Shown here in pieces: positions 1 through 8,803 of a stretch of 64,000 bases of DNA (its first letter is position 1; the number at the start of each line of letters is the position of its first letter). Origin of the DNA: Basidiobolus meristosporus CBS 931.73 (Eukaryota; Basidiobolomycota; Basidiobolomycetes; Basidiobolales; Basidiobolaceae); the NCBI GenBank assembly GCA_002104905.1, contig MCFE01000002.1, forward strand, positions 1 through 64,000, read 5' to 3'. The notes beneath the pieces are model-generated. The model saw only the letters and a list, made by a program, of their open reading frames with translations. It had not been told where the DNA came from and did no database searches. A program made the translations under genes and the position numbers.

Positions 1-142
1 AACCCTAACCCTAACCCTAACCCTAACCCTAACCCTAACCCTAACCCTAACCCTAACCCTAACCCTAACCCTAACCCTAACCCTAACCCTAACCCTAACC
101 CTAACCCTAACCCTAACCCTAACCCTAACCCTAACCCTAACC
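1..142. repeat. Telomere repeat tract, (AACCCT)n
   Basis: About 23.5 perfect copies of the hexamer AACCCT run from the first base to the edge of the first retroelement. On the minus strand this reads TTAGGG toward position 1, so the left edge is the physical chromosome end and the G-rich strand 3' terminus points left. No degenerate units are seen, which suggests telomerase-made terminal repeats rather than old interstitial ones. Short telomere-like scraps (CCCTAACCC) also separate the retroelements further in. Confidence 0.99.
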
Positions 143-665
143 AAGAACACTTAGCCTTGTGGTTATCCCTAACCCTTCCATACCCATGGTTGTGGGTTCA
201 AATCCTGGATCCAGCAAAATTTGATTAATAAATTGATGTGTGCTCATTGGGAGATGGCTTGATCAACCATCGGGCAAAGTAAAGGCTCTGATTGGCTGAA
301 ATCCTTGAAATGCTAATTGGCCAGATTTGCCTAGTAAATTTGGCCAGTGATCGCCCAGAAATTCATCTCAGTTCCCCCAGTCTACTGGCCATTCCGGCCA
401 CAATTCAGCTACCGCAAACCAGTATAACTTAGCTCAGATATATTCAGATTCTCACTTCTCAGGCCTGGCTTTCCAGGAAACCTCTCTCAGACCTAGCTAA
501 CTAGGAAATATAGTACCACTCAGCTTCTCAACTCTCAGACCTGGCTTACCAGGAAGATATCTCTCAGACCTAGCTTTCTAGGAATAACTTCAGATTAACT
601 TGGCTTCTTTAGATACTTGTCATAAGTAAATAAAGATTTCACCACTTGGTGACTTTCCTCCCCCC
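143..665 (+). mobile_element. Telomere-inserted tRNA-derived SINE, full-length copy 1
   Basis: This 523-bp non-coding element starts at AAGAACAC directly after CTAACC and ends in a C run that flows into TAACC. A tRNA-like head is visible: a Pol III A-box-like TAGCCTTGTGG at about 152-162 and a B box GGTTCAAATCC at 195-205, with the 43-nt spacing normal for tRNA genes. The body (464-582) holds four small hairpins. The tail carries AATAAAG, then a hairpin TCACC-ACTT-GGTGA at 639-652, then CTTTCC and the C run. It has no reading frame of its own. It is almost identical to the copy at 671-1196, differing at only a few bases, so the pair is young. The tail matches the LINE-like elements next door, which suggests mobilisation by their machinery. 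SINE identity is inferred from the A/B boxes and tail sharing. Confidence 0.88.
464..582 (+). repeat. Four alternating hairpins inside SINE copy 1
   Basis: Four units of the form CTCAG(A/G)-stem-loop-stem-AA lie in a row: CCTGG-CTTT-CCAGG (464-477), CCTAG-CTAA-CTAGG (492-505), CCTGG-CTTA-CCAGG (540-553) and CCTAG-CTTT-CTAGG (569-582). The stems alternate between GG/CC and AG/CT, so the changes on the two arms compensate each other. The same four units recur in copy 2 and in the truncated copy at 2463-2735. This points to selection on an RNA structure or to a duplicated structural unit. Confidence 0.8.
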
Positions 666-670
666 TAACC

Positions 671-1196
671 AAGAACACTTAGCCTTGTGGTTATCCCTAA
701 CCCTTCCATACCCATGGTTGTGGGTTCAAATCCTGGATCCAGCAAAATTTGATTAATAAATTGATGTGTGCTCATTGGGAGATGGCTTGATCAACCATCG
801 GGCAAAGTAAAGGCTCTGATTGGCTGAAATCCTTGAAATGCTAATTGGCCAGATTTGCCTAGTAAATTTGGCCAGTGATCGCCCAGAAATTCCTCTCAGT
901 TCCCCCAGTCTACTGGCCATTCCGGCCACAATTCAGCTACCGCAAACCAGTATAACTTAGCTCAGATATATTCAGATTCTCACTTCTCAGGCCTGGCTTT
1001 CCAGGAAACCTCTCTCAGACCTAGCTAACTAGGAATTATAGTACCACTCAGCTTCTCAACTCTCAGACCTGGCTTACCAGGAAGATATCTCTCAGACCTA
1101 GCTTTCTAGGAATAACTTCAGATTAACTTGGCTTCTTTAGATACTTGTCATAAGTAAATAAAGATTTCACCACTTGGTGACTTTCCTCCCCCCCCC
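671..1196 (+). mobile_element. Telomere-inserted tRNA-derived SINE, full-length copy 2
   Basis: Second full-length copy, 526 bp, same orientation, starting at the same AAGAACAC and again preceded by CTAACC. Only the five bases TAACC separate it from copy 1. It differs from copy 1 at a few sites, for example CATCTC versus CCTCTC in the middle and GGAAATATAG versus GGAATTATAG in the hairpin region, plus a longer terminal C run. The shared exact 5' start in two copies defines the full-length end. The longer C run before TAACCCTAAA suggests slippage at the priming junction. Confidence 0.88.
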
Positions 1197-1206
1197 TAAC
1201 CCTAAA

Positions 1207-1693
1207 TCTCAAGCAACAAGGTTACAACTTATCCAAGATTGTTAACATGAGATTTATCAACAATCACACTCTGGAGGTAGTACTTGACAAAAGTATTGCT
1301 AAAGAGTTCTCTCAAAATGTCTCTGACCAGTTCTACTGGGAACCTACTGACCATGCCTTTAAAGAGTTTCCTGATTCTCCAGTTTACAAGACCTTCTCAT
1401 TAGAGGAATCTCTGCTCTCAAGATTCACTTCACTTATCAAAAACTCCCCTTCACCTGCTGTTACCCACTTCCTCAAAGATTATTATATCTCTCAAGCTTA
1501 TTTACTTCACTCCCCCATGAACCTGAACTCCAGTGTACTCTGGGATACTGCCTTAACTTTAGCTTAGATTTATTCATATTCAACTTGGTGTTTACTTTGG
1601 GAATCTTCTATTCCCAGCTGGCTTCTTTATTTGTAGTTAGACTTGTCTGAAATCAAATAAAGATTTCACCTACTTTGGTGACTTTCCCTCCCC
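1207..1693 (+). mobile_element. 5'-truncated LINE-like element in telomere repeat
   Basis: The element begins right after CCCTAACCCTAAA and ends in a tail that matches the SINEs: TGGCTTCTTT, AAATAAAG, hairpin TCACC-loop-GGTGA and a C-rich run joined to TAACCCC. Between them is one open reading frame and a short 3' UTR. The frame is open from the first complete codon after the telomeric junction, as expected if the 5' end was lost during insertion rather than by later decay. No reverse transcriptase motifs are present in this fragment, so the LINE label rests on the 5' truncation, the tail and the telomeric junctions. Confidence 0.7.
1208..1567 (+). pseudogene. C-terminal fragment of a retroelement ORF (gag/ORF1-like)
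   Basis: About 119 codons are open from 1208 (CTC AAG ...) to the stop at 1565-1567; an internal ATG at 1247 would give 106 residues, but homology with the neighbour extends upstream of it. The protein aligns throughout with the frame at 1697-2365: shared blocks include LEV(V/I)LDK, RFTSL(I/L)KNSPS and LLHSP. Intact stop position and conserved protein with diverged DNA suggest that the parent ORF was under selection. It is loosely reminiscent of the C-terminal part of ORF1 proteins in zygomycete non-LTR elements, but I cannot confirm that. No catalytic motif is visible. Confidence 0.55.
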
Positions 1694-1696
1694 TAA

Positions 1697-2365
1697 CCCC
1701 TCTCCACTTCTCTTTCAGCTTCTTCCTTACCTTGCAACCCCTCAATTAGCTCTTCATCCAGTCAATCTGAAAATTCTCAGCAACCAGGAACTTCTACTAC
1801 TTGTACTCAGACCTACTCCCAAGCAATTCAAGCTCATCCAAAACCAGCTGCCCATCCATCAAGACAGTCTCCTAAGCCAGTGCACTCTAAAGCCAGAAGA
1901 AGATTCCCTGTCAGCCCTGATACTCCTCCTACTGCCAACTGGGCTGTTTGCTATTTCAGAAATGCAGGATATCTCCCAATATCAGAACAAAGAAACTACC
2001 TCAAGGACCTAGGTATTCATATGCCTAAAATTATTAACATTCAGTACATTGCCAGGGATCTCTTGGAAGTTATTCTTGACAAAGATATTGTTGAAGATTT
2101 TACAGAAGAAGTCAAAAATATGCTTGATTGGGAGCTCTCAGAGCATATATTCAGACATCATTTGGACATTCCACTCTTTGTGCCATTCTCTCTGGAAAAA
2201 GAACTCCTCAAAAGATTTACCAGCTTGTTGAAAAACTCTCCTTCCCTTCAAGTCACAAACTTCCTCAAGAAATACTACAGTGAACAAGCAGTCTTGCTAC
2301 ACTCTCCTCTAGACTTTGATATTGAGGATATTTGGGATTCAGCAAAGTCCAAGTTTATCTTGTAG
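1697..2365 (+). pseudogene. Fragment of a retroelement ORF (gag/ORF1-like)
   Basis: The frame is open from the first bases after the telomeric junction (the TAA at 1694 belongs to the telomere repeat) to TAG at 2363-2365, about 222 codons. The first 60 residues are low-complexity, rich in S, P, Q and T, followed by a basic patch (KARRRF near residue 65). A folded-looking domain of about 150 residues follows and matches the fragment at 1208-1567. A disordered, basic N-side followed by a compact C-terminal domain fits an RNA-binding ORF1/gag protein, but no zinc knuckle is seen. Function is inferred only from context. Confidence 0.55.
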
Positions 2366-2456
2366 GCTCCCTGCATCTCAGATATTCATATTCAAACTTG
2401 GCTTCTTTATTTATTATTTAAATAAGGATTTCACCCTTTGGTGATGATCATCCCCC
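1697..2456 (+). mobile_element. 5'-truncated LINE-like element, second subfamily
   Basis: It starts directly after CTAACC within CCCTAACCCC and ends with a tail of the same design: GGCTTCTTT, AAATAAGG, hairpin TCACC-CTTT-GGTGA, then TCCCCC joined to TAACCC. It is longer at the 5' side than its neighbour at 1207-1693 and related to it in protein, but clearly diverged at the DNA level, so it represents another lineage of the same family. The 3' UTR is under 100 bp. No RT or endonuclease is encoded in what remains. Confidence 0.7.
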
Positions 2457-2462
2457 TAACCC

Positions 2463-2735
2463 ATTCCAGCCACAAAGCAGCTACCGCAAACCAGTATAAC
2501 TTAGCTCAGATATATTCAGATTCTCACTTCTCAGGCCTGGCTTTCCAGGAAACCTCTCCCAGACCTAGCTAACTAGGAAATATAGTACCACTCAGCTTCT
2601 CAACTCTCAGACCTGGCTTACCAGGAAGATATCTCTCAGACCTAGCTTTCTAGGAATAGCTTCAGATTACCTTGGCTTCTTTAGATACTTGTCATAAGTA
2701 AATAAAGATTTCACCGCTTGGTGACTTTCCTCCCC
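2463..2735 (+). mobile_element. 5'-truncated SINE copy 3
   Basis: This fragment begins within the element at the equivalent of about position 390 of copy 1 (CATTCC...CCAC), immediately after TAACC. It contains all four hairpins and the AATAAAG tail with hairpin TCACC-GCTT-GGTGA. It ends TCCCC joined to TAACCC. It has more substitutions relative to copies 1 and 2 than those have to each other, so it is older. The missing 5' part again coincides with a telomere junction. Confidence 0.85.
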
Positions 2736-2740
2736 TAACC

Positions 2741-2927
2741 CTCTTGCTACCCCCCTTCCCACTGAACAGAGTCTTGGGCACTGAAGAACTATCATCACTT
2801 CTTGTTAACTTACATACAAATTCCCCTCAGCTACACACTCTTGTTTCAAAGCTACAACAGTAGCACTGGCTTCTTTGTTTAAACTGAAATAAAGATTTCA
2901 CCTGTTGGTGACTGTATCCCCCCCCCC
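2741..2927 (+). mobile_element. Short tail-only retroelement copy
   Basis: Between two CCCTAACCC scraps lies about 185 bp whose last 70 bp match the family tail: TGGCTTCTTT, AAATAAAG, hairpin TCACC-TGTT-GGTGA, then a long C run joined to TAACCC. The 5' part (CTCTTGCTAC onward) does not match the SINE body or the two ORF fragments, so it may be the 3' UTR of a third lineage. No frame is present. Confidence 0.7.
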
Positions 2928-2930
2928 TAA

Positions 2931-2996
2931 CCCACCCTTTGGTGTTTATCATCCCCCCTAAATTTTACTCTATGGTGATTATTATCATCCCCGCTA
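2931..2996 (+). repeat. Two decayed retroelement tails
   Basis: Two remnants of the terminal hairpin follow in a row: CACCCTTTGGTG with ATCATCCCCCCTAA (about 2933-2961), then a mutated version TTACTCTATGGTGA with ATCATCCCCGCTAA (about 2965-2996). Both keep the layout hairpin, spacer ATCATC, C run, TAA. They look most like the tail of the element ending at 2456. They mark the inner, oldest edge of the array. Confidence 0.55.
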
Positions 2997-3216: not shown

Positions 3217-6200
3217 TTATACATAATCTATCCTATTATCGTCATCATCTAGTACAAACTCTAATATTGGATTGAGGGTTAGTGGAGATACTGCCACTTC
3301 GCCACAAAGATTGGCAACCATAGCTTTGTTATTTTCAATGTTGGCAAGTGCACCGGACTCTTGTAAGAGGCTCATGGCCGCTGTACTCCCTCTTAATGCT
3401 GCATAATGCAATGCTGTGTCCCCACTATTATTGATAGCGTTAACATTAGCACCAGCTCTGATGAGCAGCCTCAGCACGCCAATATAGTTTGCGATGTTTT
3501 CCGATTCGGAATCACCCATAGCTGCATTGTGCAATGGAGTATTACCTCTGTTGTTGGTAGTGTTGATGTGTGCACCCGCTTTTAAGAGAAAGTCTACTCC
3601 TTCGGGATTGCAGCTGCTTGCAAAGTAATGTAGTGGTACATTTCCTAATGAGTCTTTTCCATTGATATCTATACTATCATTAATCAGAAGAGAGAGTAGG
3701 TCTCTATCATAACAAGCACTAGCACAATGCAATGGAATGCGTCCGATACCGTCCTTATTGGTTACTTCTGCTTCGCTCGCAAGCAAATCTTTCGCGATGA
3801 CCTGCCTATCTGTACTCAAGGCTATATGCAGTGCTGTGCTTCCATAGAGGTTTTTGGAATTAATATCAGAACCGGCGTCCATGAGGGCGTTCACAGCAGT
3901 GCATTTGTTCAACTTGACTGCGAAATGAAGTGGTGTTTCCTTTTCTGCATTTCCATCATTAATTTCTGCTCCAAATATGAGGAGTAGCTTCAATGGAGCT
4001 AAGATATCGTTTCCTGCGGCATAATGGAGAGCTGTGTTACCAGCCGCATCCTTATCATTAACCACTGCCCCGGATTTTAGTAGAATTTTCATTAGACTTT
4101 GATCACCCATGAGTGTAGCTTGCTGCAAAGGAGTAATGCCATCGTAATTCTTTGTGTTAACATCAGCTCCTGCGCGAAGTAGAAGTCCGACGATTTCAAT
4201 ATTGCTGTATGATATTGCAACGAACAAGGGAGTATCTCCTGCGTAGTCCTTGATATCTACTTGTGCTCCGGAACGAATCAGGTAGTTGATGATTTTTTTA
4301 TGGCTCATTTGCACGCTATTATGCAAAGCAGTCCATCCTTTATGGTCTTTAGCATCGATATCTGCGCCTTGATTGATAAGATTTATCACGCCTTTGTAAT
4401 GGCCCACTTTTGCAGCAATATGTAGGTCGAAATCCTCCTCGGCATGCCGTTTCGCTCCAAATTTCTTCAGGAAGTCTATCATTATTTGATCTCCTATCTC
4501 AATGGCAAAGTCAAGTGGGCATTTTTTTCTTATATCGTATATGTTGATCTCTGCGCCAGCGTTTAGAAGTAATCTCACTATCTCTGTGCTCCCCATTTTA
4601 ATTGCCTTGTGTAGTGGAGTACCTTCGTTGTCCATAATATTGACATGCGCCCCAGCTTCAAGCAGAATCTCCATTATTGCAACATTATTGGATCGGATAT
4701 TAAACGTTGCCAACAAGATTCCTTTTGACGTAGCCTCTATACTAGCCCCACGAGCAAGTAAAAGCTTCACCAATCTCGGGTTTTCAGAAAGTACGGCGCG
4801 GTAGAGGGGCGTACTCCCATTATTATTCACCACGCTCAGGCTGGGTCCAGCTTCTAGCAGTAATTCGGCTATTGATTCATCCACAACAACATGTAGCGGG
4901 GTGTTACCACGGTCAGTAATAATGTTGGCATTCGCACCCTCATGAAGCAGTAGTTTCACTATTTCTACATGGCCATTTTCAACTGCATGATATAAGGGGG
5001 TGCCATACGAGTCATCCTCCACGTTGATATTTGCTCCAGCTCCAATTAATAGCTTTAGAACTTCAAGGTGACCATGCTCTGCAGCATATGTGGCCGGAAT
5101 TTCGCTTGCTACTGTCTCAATATTTATATTAGCTCCTGCTGATATCAGAAGCTGCGCAATATCTTTATATCCTTTTGCGGATGCGATATGAAGAGGGGTT
5201 TCTTCATGATCATTTTCGATATTAGTGTCTGCCCCAGCATCAAGTAGGAGCTTCACAATTGCACGGTTTCCTGATCGAACGGCATGAAGCAAAGGCGTTT
5301 CGTCTTGCGAATTTCGGATGTTAACATTGACCCCGCTCACGGCGAGCAGGAGTGTGACTAGTTCTTCGGCGCTTATTTGGGAGGCCAGATGTAGTGCCGA
5401 CTCTCTTTGCTCATCTAGTAGATTGACATCAACCTTCTTTGCTATCAATGCCCTCACTAGACTACACGAGTTTTTTATACAGGCCCAATGTAGCAATGTT
5501 CTGCCCTCAATACATGGAATGTCTTCAATTGATTCTGAAAACCTATCCATCCATCCAACTGCGCTTACCATATTTCCTAGCATGGTTTCCAATAAGGACA
5601 TCACTCCGCTAGAGATCCCGATATTCTCTTTGGCCATAAGTTGCACCATTCTCTTGGCATGCTCGTATGGCGTATTTCCCGCTTCGGTTGTATGGCTAGC
5701 TAGATGGTATTTAACTGAATCCAGCTGCATTTTTGCCCAATCAAGGGACTGTAGTATAGATACCACTTCTTGTAAATTGATCCGATCCTCAGGATTGATC
5801 TGAGTACAAGACTCAATCAGCTGTCGAACTTCATGTGGCAAATCCAGTGTTAGTGTCTCTACCAACTCCAAGTATATCGATTGTTCCTCTAGTTCTTTGT
5901 GCTTTCGTTTGGTGTGCCGAGGTCTACTAATTCGTTTGAATACCTTGAAGCACAGCATACCGAAGCTGTAAACGTCGCAACATGACCATAAGTTAACACT
6001 ACGATCTGATGAGCTTCCGGGAGCGATCCACTCGGTGTCCATCATCTTGTAATTTCTGTACTTCACACCGCCAATGAAGTCGACGATTTTTGGCTCCATA
6101 TCGCGATCTATTGTAATACTGGAAAGATTCAGCCCGGCATGGATCATCCCTGCTCCCAGAGCTCTTTCCAGAATCTTGGCTATCTTTAACAAAATTATTC

Positions 6201-6567
6201 GCATACCTTCCCAGCCGACTGTGTCACCATGCTCGTTAACAAACTCATCCAAAGTTGGATCGGATACATTCTCTGTGACCAGCCAATATAGCGGGCCACC
6301 TCCATCTTCATCGCCCGCAATTAAGCCTAATGGTGTGGGCAACCCTTCTATGCCCAATCCTGTCAGCAACTTCATCTCAGCAACGGCTTCATCGTGGTCT
6401 ATTAAGGTCGAATTAACCTCTCTTATAGACACCAGTCGATCTTCCAAGATTCCTGTTAATATTCTCTCTTTTCCACCCGTAATGAGCTCCTGTACTGAAC
6501 TTATATCGGCTCGTTGAATTATTAAAGGAGACATAAGAGCTAAAAGGCGATCTGATTTACTTGGCAC
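3217..6567 (-). CDS. Pseudokinase with about 20 ankyrin repeats
   Basis: Single-exon gene, 1116 residues, and the first gene inside the retroelement array. Residues about 20-270 have a protein-kinase fold signature, but the key residues are degraded. The beta-3 VAIK motif reads VSIR (Arg49 for Lys), and the HRD loop reads HAG at 143-145 with Asn and Ser where Lys and Asn are expected. DFG is DFI (163-165), while the alpha-F segment DVYSFG (198-203) is kept. This indicates a catalytically dead kinase used as a binding or scaffold module. From about residue 354 to 1085 there are roughly 20 ankyrin repeats with the usual G.TPLH..A and LL..GA..N signatures. No signal peptide or membrane segment is seen. 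Partner and pathway cannot be read from the sequence. Confidence 0.88.
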   Translation of the reverse strand: MPSKSDRLLALMSPLIIQRADISSVQELITGGKERILTGILEDRLVSIREVNSTLIDHDEAVAEMKLLTGLGIEGLPTPLGLIAGDEDGGGPLYWLVTENVSDPTLDEFVNEHGDTVGWEGMRIILLKIAKILERALGAGMIHAGLNLSSITIDRDMEPKIVDFIGGVKYRNYKMMDTEWIAPGSSSDRSVNLWSCCDVYSFGMLCFKVFKRISRPRHTKRKHKELEEQSIYLELVETLTLDLPHEVRQLIESCTQINPEDRINLQEVVSILQSLDWAKMQLDSVKYHLASHTTEAGNTPYEHAKRMVQLMAKENIGISSGVMSLLETMLGNMVSAVGWMDRFSESIEDIPCIEGRTLLHWACIKNSCSLVRALIAKKVDVNLLDEQRESALHLASQISAEELVTLLLAVSGVNVNIRNSQDETPLLHAVRSGNRAIVKLLLDAGADTNIENDHEETPLHIASAKGYKDIAQLLISAGANINIETVASEIPATYAAEHGHLEVLKLLIGAGANINVEDDSYGTPLYHAVENGHVEIVKLLLHEGANANIITDRGNTPLHVVVDESIAELLLEAGPSLSVVNNNGSTPLYRAVLSENPRLVKLLLARGASIEATSKGILLATFNIRSNNVAIMEILLEAGAHVNIMDNEGTPLHKAIKMGSTEIVRLLLNAGAEINIYDIRKKCPLDFAIEIGDQIMIDFLKKFGAKRHAEEDFDLHIAAKVGHYKGVINLINQGADIDAKDHKGWTALHNSVQMSHKKIINYLIRSGAQVDIKDYAGDTPLFVAISYSNIEIVGLLLRAGADVNTKNYDGITPLQQATLMGDQSLMKILLKSGAVVNDKDAAGNTALHYAAGNDILAPLKLLLIFGAEINDGNAEKETPLHFAVKLNKCTAVNALMDAGSDINSKNLYGSTALHIALSTDRQVIAKDLLASEAEVTNKDGIGRIPLHCASACYDRDLLSLLINDSIDINGKDSLGNVPLHYFASSCNPEGVDFLLKAGAHINTTNNRGNTPLHNAAMGDSESENIANYIGVLRLLIRAGANVNAINNSGDTALHYAALRGSTAAMSLLQESGALANIENNKAMVANLCGEVAVSPLTLNPILEFVLDDDDNRIDYV

Positions 6568-8803
6568 TGGTATTTTCTTGAGTTGAAGGAGATGTATTGA
6601 TGATGCATAAGGTAGAACTTCAATCCTTTTATGTATTCTCGATTGCCAGCCCTACTCTGACGTGAATACATCTTATCTTTGATTAGCATAGTTAATAGCT
6701 TGGGTGCTGCGGACTATTAGCTCTTAATATAAAGCATCATTTTTGATTAATCTATCACCGAACTAGGTTGAGACTTCTTTCGATCAGCATGCCAGGATAC
6801 CCCCGTTCTTAGAGTAATGTGAGCAACTGCCGCAGCCTTTGACCAGGAAAGGGCTGGCTGTAGTGTTATCCAACTAGTTCGTATCCAGAAATGCCATCCA
6901 TTAGTATCATTCACAGGATTTCTCTCCTTAAACCTTATATAAACCCTATTGTATGCACCAGATCAATTATCTGGTTGTATTACTTGGGTGAGACTTCTAA
7001 AAGTTTAGTGAGAAATGCTGCAACATTATCGATTTCGGAACAACTGGTAGATAATAATTATATTTTTTGTTGCCTATTAGTCTAGTGTCATTGTGCCTGG
7101 CTGTACTAATATTGGGCATCATTGACTATCAAGTAGACTTGGTGCCCAACGCATATTTTTGGGGCTCTTATACATGTGTAAAAGCTTGGATGTCACTAGG
7201 CCCTAAGCCCGTGTCTCAATGATGTGAGATGGGTGAGTATTAGATGAAATGGAACGGATCCCATATGTCATAGGGCTGCATGAAGTAGATCTCTACAAGC
7301 GTAGTCGATAGCAAATTTGTTTTTGAATCAAAGTAGGTTGAATATTTTGTTGCCTTTAGGGAAAGTGAGGGCTACGCTCTACTACAAACTCAAGCTTTAG
7401 GCACCGGTGCCGAGTGCAAGAAGGACAGAGTGGCTTTGTGTCCAGCAAGTGGATTTACATAATTTTCACCAGCATAATACGAAAGTAACCGTATGTGGAC
7501 ATGAACACTTGAATCACCCACAAATGATGATGCGTAGTGCATTATGTTATACATATGCGTATATGTCTCCCGCTACGAGGCTCCGATCTGTATAGCATCC
7601 AGTCAAATCTTGTTTATAGAAGTCACACCCACTAAGGCAATCGCAGGATCATAAGTGATCAAATAGCGTAGTGGCTTGGGTAACCATGGAAGCACGTTCG
7701 CTTGATAATAAGAGAATATCTTAACTTCATAGCGAATGGCTCAACTTCGAATGTATCCTGGGCCCACTATTCATAACCAGCAATTTTTGTATGAGACTGG
7801 ATCATGAACGCAAAAAGATCATTCCATTGCTAGCAATGATAAGAATCAAGAACTCCCTCCACCAACAGTATTCAACTACATGCATGATGTCTAATTCAAT
7901 ACCGTCTGTGTTGAGAACATTGACCAATGTTAACTGGTAGTAAATTGGCATCTGTATCTGTTATTTAATTCTGGAGGAAAACCCACTCTTCACCTAATTT
8001 GTGACATATTCAAGAGTCGATGTTCGTTTGCAGCTCCACGATTTCTCAGAGCAGAAGATCAATGTTTGGCAAGCTCCAAAAACAAGGGATCCACTTTGCA
8101 TGAAATTAGCCACACATTCGCGATTGCCATACATTGTTGAATCAACCGCACCACCACTTTATAAATATGAATTAGATTGTACCTTCGTATACATAAGCCG
8201 GTTGGATCTGGATTCAAGTATCCTTTAATCATCTGTGCTGTATTAACCAGCTAATAAAACATGCATTCTGCTGAAGCAAGATTGATCCAGTTGTGCCGAG
8301 TAATACTGATCCCATTGCCTATCTTGAAGGTCACGTAGGATCAGGCAGGAGGACCGCCATTTTAGTTGCCGCTCGGCCACGTGTCTACCCCTACTGATAC
8401 CTTGATTTTCAAGCTAGTTGATGATGATAGAGGAGACTCTGGACTGGCTATGATCTATCTATTCAGCATTCAGCAGTATTTCTTAACCATACTACGTGAT
8501 AGCTTGCTAACGGTTGCTAAAGGTTTGTAGCAAGCATCGGTTCAATCAGTGCACGGCTCATTATCGAAACGTAATCGCAGCATAACCCTGAAGATGGCAC
8601 CACTAGTATCACTATTTTTGTTATTGCAATCATTACTATTATTGATGCAGCTGTGTCACCAGCATTGCACCCTTTCTCCTTATGATTGCGTTCAATGTAG
8701 TCATTTCATCTACATTGCTACTATTATAACTTTTTCATGGCTATTATTTCTCGTGCAATTTCCATACAATTTCTATCCTTCTTCCATATTTTCTGAAATC
8801 TAA
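6568..8803. other. Intergenic, no gene recognised
   Basis: About 2.2 kb upstream of the ankyrin gene. Frames are short on both strands, and I see no splice-supported exon chain, RNA gene or transposon end. The stretch nearest 6567 is the presumed promoter of the ankyrin gene; no clear TATA box was found. Confidence 0.5.

Follow-up and report, generated by a model that had tools for sequence, protein, structure and literature searches.

Contig C424 of Basidiobolus meristosporus CBS 931.73 (MCFE01000002.1, assembly GCA_002104905.1) bears at its left end, directly inside the terminal telomere, a train of retroelements that all lie on one strand, and we consider it likely that this train is the product of a community of telomere-resident non-long-terminal-repeat (non-LTR) retroelements that add themselves to chromosome ends alongside telomerase. 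The stretch analysed, called the window below, comprises the first 64,000 nucleotides of this 312,558-bp contig, in a genome of 89.0 Mb and 1311 contigs. Extending from 143 to about 2997, the train has six clear elements and, after them, two remnants of tails, in agreement with the at least eight same-orientation elements or remnants counted by a first-pass annotation. The six are two full-length copies of a short interspersed nuclear element (SINE), one fragment each of families C and D, which resemble only the first open reading frame (ORF1) of a long interspersed nuclear element (LINE), a truncated SINE and the 3' end of a LINE of the family here called LINE-A:

1 to 142, plus strand: terminal telomere repeat (AACCCT)n, 23.7 copies, 100% match.
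143 to 665, plus strand: SINE copy 1, full length, outermost element; tail and C6 run at 660-665.
152 to 162, plus strand: A-box-like element TAGCCTTGTGG of an RNA polymerase III (pol III) promoter in SINE 1, 1 mismatch to the consensus as we take it; SINE 2 counterpart at 680-690.
195 to 205, plus strand: B box GGTTCAAATCC of SINE 1, fitting the consensus as we take it; SINE 2 counterpart at 723-733.
666 to 670, plus strand: telomeric junction TAACC between SINE 1 and SINE 2, from the junction analysis.
671 to 1196, plus strand: full-length SINE copy 2, which closes with a C9 run at 1188-1196 and holds four mini-hairpins (992, 1020, 1068 and 1097).
1197 to 1205, plus strand: telomeric junction TAACCCTAA, from the junction analysis.
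1206 to 1693, plus strand: 5'-truncated ORF1-only element of family C; open frame 1181-1567, 34% to LINE-A ORF1; tail loop TACTTT.
1655 to 1693, plus strand: an example of the shared 3' tail, with stem I arm, stem II TCACC/GGTGA, pyrimidines and C run, then TAACCC.
1700 to 2456, plus strand: 5'-truncated ORF1-only element of family D; open frame 1697-2365, 30% to LINE-A ORF1; tail loop CTTT.
2463 to 2735, plus strand: 5'-truncated SINE.
2741 to 2927, plus strand: LINE-A 3' end, comprising the end of ORF2 and the tail; C10 run.
2934 to 2992, plus strand: two degenerate tail remnants seen in the sequence, TTTGGTGTTTATCATCCCCCCTAA and ATGGTGATTATTATCATCCCC (about 2934-2958 and 2962-2992).

Each clear unit closes with a TCACC-loop-GGTGA hairpin, a pyrimidine stretch that includes a C run, and TAACC(C). 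The hairpin motif of the six full tails lies at 635, 1163, 1662, 2427, 2707 and 2894, always on the plus strand and never on the minus strand, and after every one of these tails the C run passes into TAACC(C), much as the first-pass annotation had described a C run merging into TAACCC. The two full-length SINEs are identical at 516 of 518 positions (143-660 against 671-1188). The strict tail motif GATTTCACC is absent from the rest of the 64-kb window, and the train is not a chance product, since TAACCCTAACCC gave 21 matches against 0 in each of 100 shuffles. A simple satellite was ruled out, as the units vary in family and truncation point, and so was the derivation of all fragments from one LINE, as the tails vary in loop and body. 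The mixed SINE and LINE system proposed from the first pass stands in so far as one SINE family and a LINE family take part, but it was incomplete: two ORF1-only families are also present. The right end of the same contig (stretch L042) likewise bears a telomere and a train.

As a check, the first-pass annotation had proposed that nearly all copies of the tail in the assembly should abut (TTAGGG)n at chromosome ends in the same orientation. The strict tail pattern has 1575 matches in the whole assembly, 129 on the plus and 1446 on the minus strand (the reversed pattern, used as control, has none on either strand genome-wide), and (TTAGGG)6 has 6568 matches on the plus and 68 on the minus strand; this skew reflects the contig orientation of the assembly, tails and telomeres being skewed in the expected sense. 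Among the first 100 tails listed, 38 are on 11 contigs longer than 100 kb (2.15 Mb in all), and every one lies within 22.2 kb of a contig end with its 5' side outward; the other 62 are on 17 contigs of about 18-20 kb, and the 5' side is the one nearer the end in 54. The tail of a second LINE family, LINE-B (162 copies, about 100 listed), gave the same picture: all 31 listed copies on 26 contigs known to exceed 100 kb (4.6 Mb; the short contigs C23, C27, C32, C45, C65, C96 and C318 and those of unknown length are left out of this count) have their 5' side outward and lie no more than 21.8 kb from an end. The two samples have one LINE-B tail in common, on C1. Among the sampled tails on contigs longer than 100 kb, copies are confined to chromosome ends in one orientation, and none of the internal, mixed-orientation copies that would have spoken for another origin was seen. 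In the window start and 20 further fetched stretches, which were chosen for carrying tails, 100 tails are on one strand and 0 on the other, and a terminal telomere tract is present at 15 of the 20 contig ends that the fetched stretches cover. A PF00078 profile search of the assembly returned 150 scored reverse transcriptase places out of 2913 candidates, many of them away from tails.

The tail itself is common to all these elements. Seven aligned tails (SINE, two LINE-A, LINE-B, two family C and family D) share TGGCTTCTTT and AAATAA(A/G)GATTTCACC..TTGGTGA, and the three tails that were folded form two 3' hairpins with z scores of -2.4, -3.4 and -3.5 (4, 1 and 1 of 200 shuffles fold as well). 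Over 25 distinct versions of stem I, representing 134 copies, pair 10 is AT in 9, GC in 9, CG in 5 and a wobble in 1, so that it is paired in 24 of 25; the weak spots are pair 7, which fails in 6 of 25, pair 8, which fails in 4, and pair 11, which holds in 10. The length of the C run is 3-10 in the SINE, 5-10 in LINE-A and 4 or more in LINE-B. SINE, LINE and ORF1-only elements thus end in a common structured two-hairpin 3' tail, as is the rule in LINE/SINE pairs of the stringent type.

At the 3' side of the tails, 153 copies in 37 stretches correspond to 131 distinct junctions, in 116 of which the C run is followed by at least TAA. The telomeric tract between one element and the next measures 3-13 nt in 111 of the 131 (the longest is 41), and the terminal tracts, determined for 20 stretches of which one contig supplied two, are 74-243 bp long. 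The exact 5' end of the SINE was found at 210 places, and at 164 of these CCTAACC immediately precedes it. We could place 95 of the 131 junctions on a reference and scored as full those within 12 nt of the reference start: 24 are full (22 SINE, 2 family C) and 71 truncated (34 LINE-A, 20 SINE, 10 family C, 7 LINE-B), so that variable 5' truncation is combined with a common 3' end (100 common tails), as in LINEs generally. At least one full SINE is preceded by a 29-nt insert, and at least two LINE-A junctions scored as truncated (L043, L009) begin at a start common to L041 and L044; since L043 and L009 share this true 5' start, the real number of truncations is somewhat lower. Because the target is the telomere repeat itself, a target-site duplication is not definable.

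A stricter pass resolved 53 junctions exactly, with a further 9 carrying inserted or mismatched bases. Telomeric microhomology at truncation junctions averages 1.79 nt against 0.755 (standard deviation 0.134) under a simple random-breakpoint model, and none of 2000 null sets reaches it (largest 1.26). The tract is closed by CCCT or TAA in 38 of the 53 junctions, and G follows TAA in 27 of 45 (expected fraction 0.228, p about 9e-8; examples are L032, L038, L045 and L049), a bias to be expected if the template of the telomerase RNA were bordered by CUAAG. In all these counts homologous ends are perhaps non-independent, and some junctions (L043 and L009; L032 and L017) may represent one event.

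Two LINE families appear able to supply the enzymes. LINE-A is about 4.57 kb long and LINE-B at least about 4.67 kb. In LINE-A, ORF1 comprises 523 codons and ORF2 922; L041 and L043 have both frames open, and the ORF2 frame is open in L044, L047 and L049 too; LINE-B has frames of 556 and 949 codons (L048), with ORF2 open in L046 as well. The two families are 46.7% identical in ORF2 and 33.0% in ORF1. ORF2 contains a reverse transcriptase domain in both (RVT_1, E = 2.6e-25 and 1.5e-20 in Pfam), its best PDB matches are to LINE-1 ORF2, which marks the enzyme as LINE-type, and an NCBIfam scan gave distant reverse transcriptase models only. The ratio of nonsynonymous to synonymous substitution rates (dN/dS) of ORF2 ranges from 0.15 to 0.27 over six LINE-A pairs; the one LINE-B pair compared gives 0.08. 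ORF1 and ORF2 lie in the same frame, separated in six of six copies (LINE-A of L041, L043, L044 and L047; LINE-B of L046 and L048) by a single TGA followed by CTA, and the first ATG of the ORF2 frame does not come before codon 142 in LINE-A or 59 in LINE-B. UGA-CUA counts as a context for read-through; to judge from the sequence of this border, the cell may therefore produce ORF2 as an ORF1-ORF2 fusion. In the LINE-A copy of L044 (reverse complement about 1620-1820) roughly the first 100 nt of the 5' region seem to be present twice, an arrangement like the 5' untranslated region monomers of some LINEs.

The N-terminus of ORF2 weakly resembles an apurinic endonuclease (APE). All six aligned copies keep N8, Y93, D126/N128, D171 and S200-D201-H202, which we take to be its motif residues, and what would presumably be the Glu of motif II is replaced by Asp33 in both families. 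Pfam gives a weak endonuclease match (PF14529, E = 5e-4, below the curated cut-off) in LINE-A and none in LINE-B ORF2, and a comparison of the region with PDB returned 0 matches; the AlphaFold model of ORF2, with a mean predicted local distance difference test score of 37, is too poor to bear on the question. Regular expressions found no pattern of a restriction-enzyme-like endonuclease (REL) or CCHC type in either ORF2, and profiles no REL match.

The other members of the trains would be passengers. The SINE is roughly 525 nt long and tRNA-like, with the A and B boxes 43 nt apart. It is not a broken tRNA gene, as ARAGORN found 0 genes in it and Rfam no tRNA match up to E = 10, nor a known RNA family, as there was no credible Rfam match (two at E 4-5 are far below the cut-offs). 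In its mini-hairpins (992-1110 in the window, and other SINE copies) CCTGG..CCAGG alternates with CCTAG..CTAGG, a compensatory exchange. Elements of family C encode solely a 271-aa ORF1-like protein, 30-36% to LINE-A ORF1, and end in the shared tail; their dN/dS of 0.25-0.36 (six pairs from four copies) suggests that this protein is constrained, a signal that may instead reflect the source lineage.

A clue to how trains grow is given by contigs C2 (stretch L032) and C484 (L048), which share 3.7 kb of inner train at 98.8%, including a gypsy-type piece, up to a junction; outside the common part one has truncated LINE-A copies and the other LINE-B. This is as outward growth predicts, and recombination between ends can partly give the same pattern. 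The successive addition at the chromosome end that the first-pass annotation had inferred is supported to this extent, in one pair of ends. Pieces with gypsy-type integrase and copia-type reverse transcriptase are found within trains with their outer part missing (L032, L048, and L038 at reverse complement 415-2460), which points to loss of the end followed by healing. We rejected template switching as their source because the copia piece ends in what we read as an apparently complete LTR, which makes it likelier that they inserted and later lost their outer part. In L032, two adjacent LINE-A 3' pieces of 118-120 nt (reverse complement 3946-4183) begin at an identical point and come after a longer piece; they may stem from a local duplication instead of separate insertion events.

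The host retains a telomerase gene, as its RNA-binding domain was found on C880 as two segments, with E = 1.6e-8 for the first and 9.7e-7 for the second, which contains one TAG that an intron would explain. From 22.3 windows per fetched end we estimate about 300 telomeric ends, a figure taken from ends that are not random and from 16 values of which one is an interstitial tract; together with C424, telomeric at both ends, this suggests many small chromosomes or many variant ends. The telomeres of the assembly are oddly distributed, mostly at the right end of contigs (6568 of 6636 (TTAGGG)6 matches are on the forward strand). Directly inside the train of the window there is an open frame of 1144 aa (3217-6651, minus strand) with ankyrin-like repeats recognised by eye. 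PF04082, which we take to be a transcription-factor domain restricted to fungi, has 55 matches in the genome, which supports a fungal origin. The strain is described as sequenced with PacBio (PMC7466969).

From these observations we infer a cycle of five steps in which a free 3' overhang, rather than a nick, would serve as primer. The autonomous LINE-A and LINE-B would supply the enzymes, which the ORF1-only elements and the SINE would borrow through the common 3' RNA tail. The reverse transcriptase would recognise the tail hairpins; the C run and UAACCC of the RNA would then anneal to the G-rich strand of the telomere, and the 3' end of that strand would prime cDNA synthesis outwards. Synthesis would often stop early and leave a 5' truncation, after which telomerase would recap the 3' end of the cDNA, preferring sites with 1-4 nt of telomeric homology. 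Once the cap had shortened to about one repeat the cycle could start again, and its repetition would produce head-to-tail trains.

Some of our data weigh against this cycle. AATAAA just before stem II suggests ordinary polyadenylation, although the copies end in a C run and telomere instead, and TAA is missing from 15 of the 131 junctions. On the contigs of at most 20 kb, the 5' side is the one more distant from the end in 8 of the 62 tails, of which C32 carries six, and a terminal telomere tract is missing from 5 of the 20 contig ends, perhaps because of assembly breaks. Contig interiors were sampled rather than exhausted, position having been checked for 100 of the 1575 tails and 31 of the 162 LINE-B tails. 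L032 has one SINE more than L048 within their shared part, so that trains also change internally. The reading of the ORF2 N-terminus as an APE endonuclease is weak as well, and such an enzyme would be unneeded for end priming.

That enzyme is central to a different route, of the TRAS/SART or MoTeR style, in which the endonuclease of the element would nick the telomeric repeat near the subtelomere boundary, reverse transcription would start there and the outer telomere would be kept. The conservation of most of the presumed APE-type residues in all six aligned copies and the sub-threshold Pfam match of LINE-A favour nicking, whereas Asp33 in place of the motif-II Glu in both families, and the want of a Pfam match in LINE-B and of a PDB match for the region, speak against it. 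Moreover, inner tracts of 3-13 nt beside terminal tracts of 74-243 bp would demand cutting almost at the boundary every time; MoTeR trains are nevertheless described with comparably short tracts that start at half a repeat (PMC7367193). On balance we think this route unlikely. We give still less weight to the idea that the elements are inactive, the trains being spread by recombination or break-induced replication and the 5' truncations produced by telomerase healing of breaks alone. Such events are reported to change MoTeR trains (PMC7367193), and the long stretches common to different ends and the gypsy and copia pieces without outer part would be natural outcomes of them, but near-identical copies with intact ORF1 and ORF2 and an ORF2 dN/dS of 0.08-0.27 are not what inactivity predicts, and recombination does not explain many differently truncated elements that each have a complete tail fused to a telomeric junction. 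That the trains are artefacts of collapsed or chimeric telomeric reads seems hardly credible: the odd contig orientation and the many telomeric contigs of just about 18-20 kb might raise the suspicion, but many contigs, one of them 312,558 bp long with telomere and train at both ends, repeat the same element families and follow the same rules at the junctions.

If end addition is the correct reading, a broader picture can be proposed, which we hold tentatively and would not yet call probable. The telomeres of this fungus would sustain a three-tier economy, in which LINEs with reverse transcriptase, constrained Gag-only elements and a pol III-type SINE, the first to reside in telomeres, depend on one telomere-complementary RNA tail and, together with telomerase, lengthen and heal some hundreds of ends; the reverse transcriptase would be made as a UGA-CUA read-through fusion, and the TAA|G preference (27 of 45) would mark the border of the telomerase RNA template. 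The list of telomere-associated retrotransposons surveyed in PMC10088271 names no SINE, and in the titles and openings of abstracts that our searches of open-access papers brought up, neither a SINE resident at telomeres nor a telomeric retroelement from Basidiobolus or Zoopagomycota appears. MoTeR and FoTeR, the telomeric LINEs of fungi that we met in print, are described with REL endonucleases and from ascomycete hosts; the same niche seems to have been reached here by a different two-ORF LINE, with two classes of non-autonomous passengers. As tail recognition (common hairpins) and end targeting (C run and telomere repeat) are experimentally separable, the telomere specificity of a LINE becomes testable. 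The partnership of Gag-only and reverse transcriptase elements beside a telomerase gene bears on the possible origin of the telomerase-free Drosophila system, and in the many junctions nature has recorded how telomeres are added to ends that are not telomeric.

Among known systems, TRAS and SART have an APE-type endonuclease. They are LINEs of silkworm that, like Tx1-1_ACar of the anole, lie in telomeric repeats, and they belong to R1-type families and are found in opposite orientations (PMC10088271). In B. meristosporus, by contrast, all sampled copies have one orientation, the C-run tail merges into the repeat and a SINE participates. HeT-A, TART and TAHRE of Drosophila have one orientation, 3' ends inward, 5' truncation and a Gag-only partner, whereas here telomere repeats and a telomerase gene persist. 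Drosophila HTT telomeres are mentioned in PMC10088271, as are Athena Penelope-like elements, which contain telomeric repeats. Athena/Coprina and GilM/GilT of Giardia are, like the present elements, telomere-associated. Penelope-like elements reportedly make endonuclease-deficient use of telomeric ends; the reverse transcriptase found here appears, with LINE-1 ORF2 as best PDB match, to be of the LINE type rather than Penelope-like. Stringent-type SINEs such as UnaSINE1 and Mg-SINE are dispersed in the genome, whereas the tail described here leads into telomere sequence and its sampled copies are terminal. A LINE reverse transcriptase can reportedly use a telomeric end as primer, as in endonuclease-independent insertion of LINE-1 at dysfunctional telomeres; this is exceptional in mammals, while here the telomeric end would be the habitual site. 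Common structured 3' tails of a SINE and a LINE are described for UnaL2/UnaSINE1 of eel and Mg-SINE/MgL of Magnaporthe (PMC3747384).

MoTeR1 and MoTeR2 of Pyricularia oryzae are described as telomeric LINE trains with short TTAGGG tracts, truncation, LTR elements and healing by telomere addition; MoTeR2 is a non-autonomous partner that shares its ends with MoTeR1, and MAGGY is reported to have inserted into these trains and then to have lost its outer part (PMC7367193). FoTeR of Fusarium oxysporum is a further telomeric fungal LINE (PMC12857005). With these the elements of B. meristosporus have in common that they are telomeric LINEs of fungi in head-to-tail trains with short telomeric tracts, truncation and non-autonomous partners. 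MoTeR1 and FoTeR are described with a REL endonuclease, of which we found no motif here, so we do not class the present elements with the MoTeR/FoTeR type; they differ too in having two frames around a UGA, an N-terminal APE-like region, and a tRNA-like SINE and ORF1-only elements as riders. MoTeR, together with FoTeR, is nevertheless the nearest working parallel.

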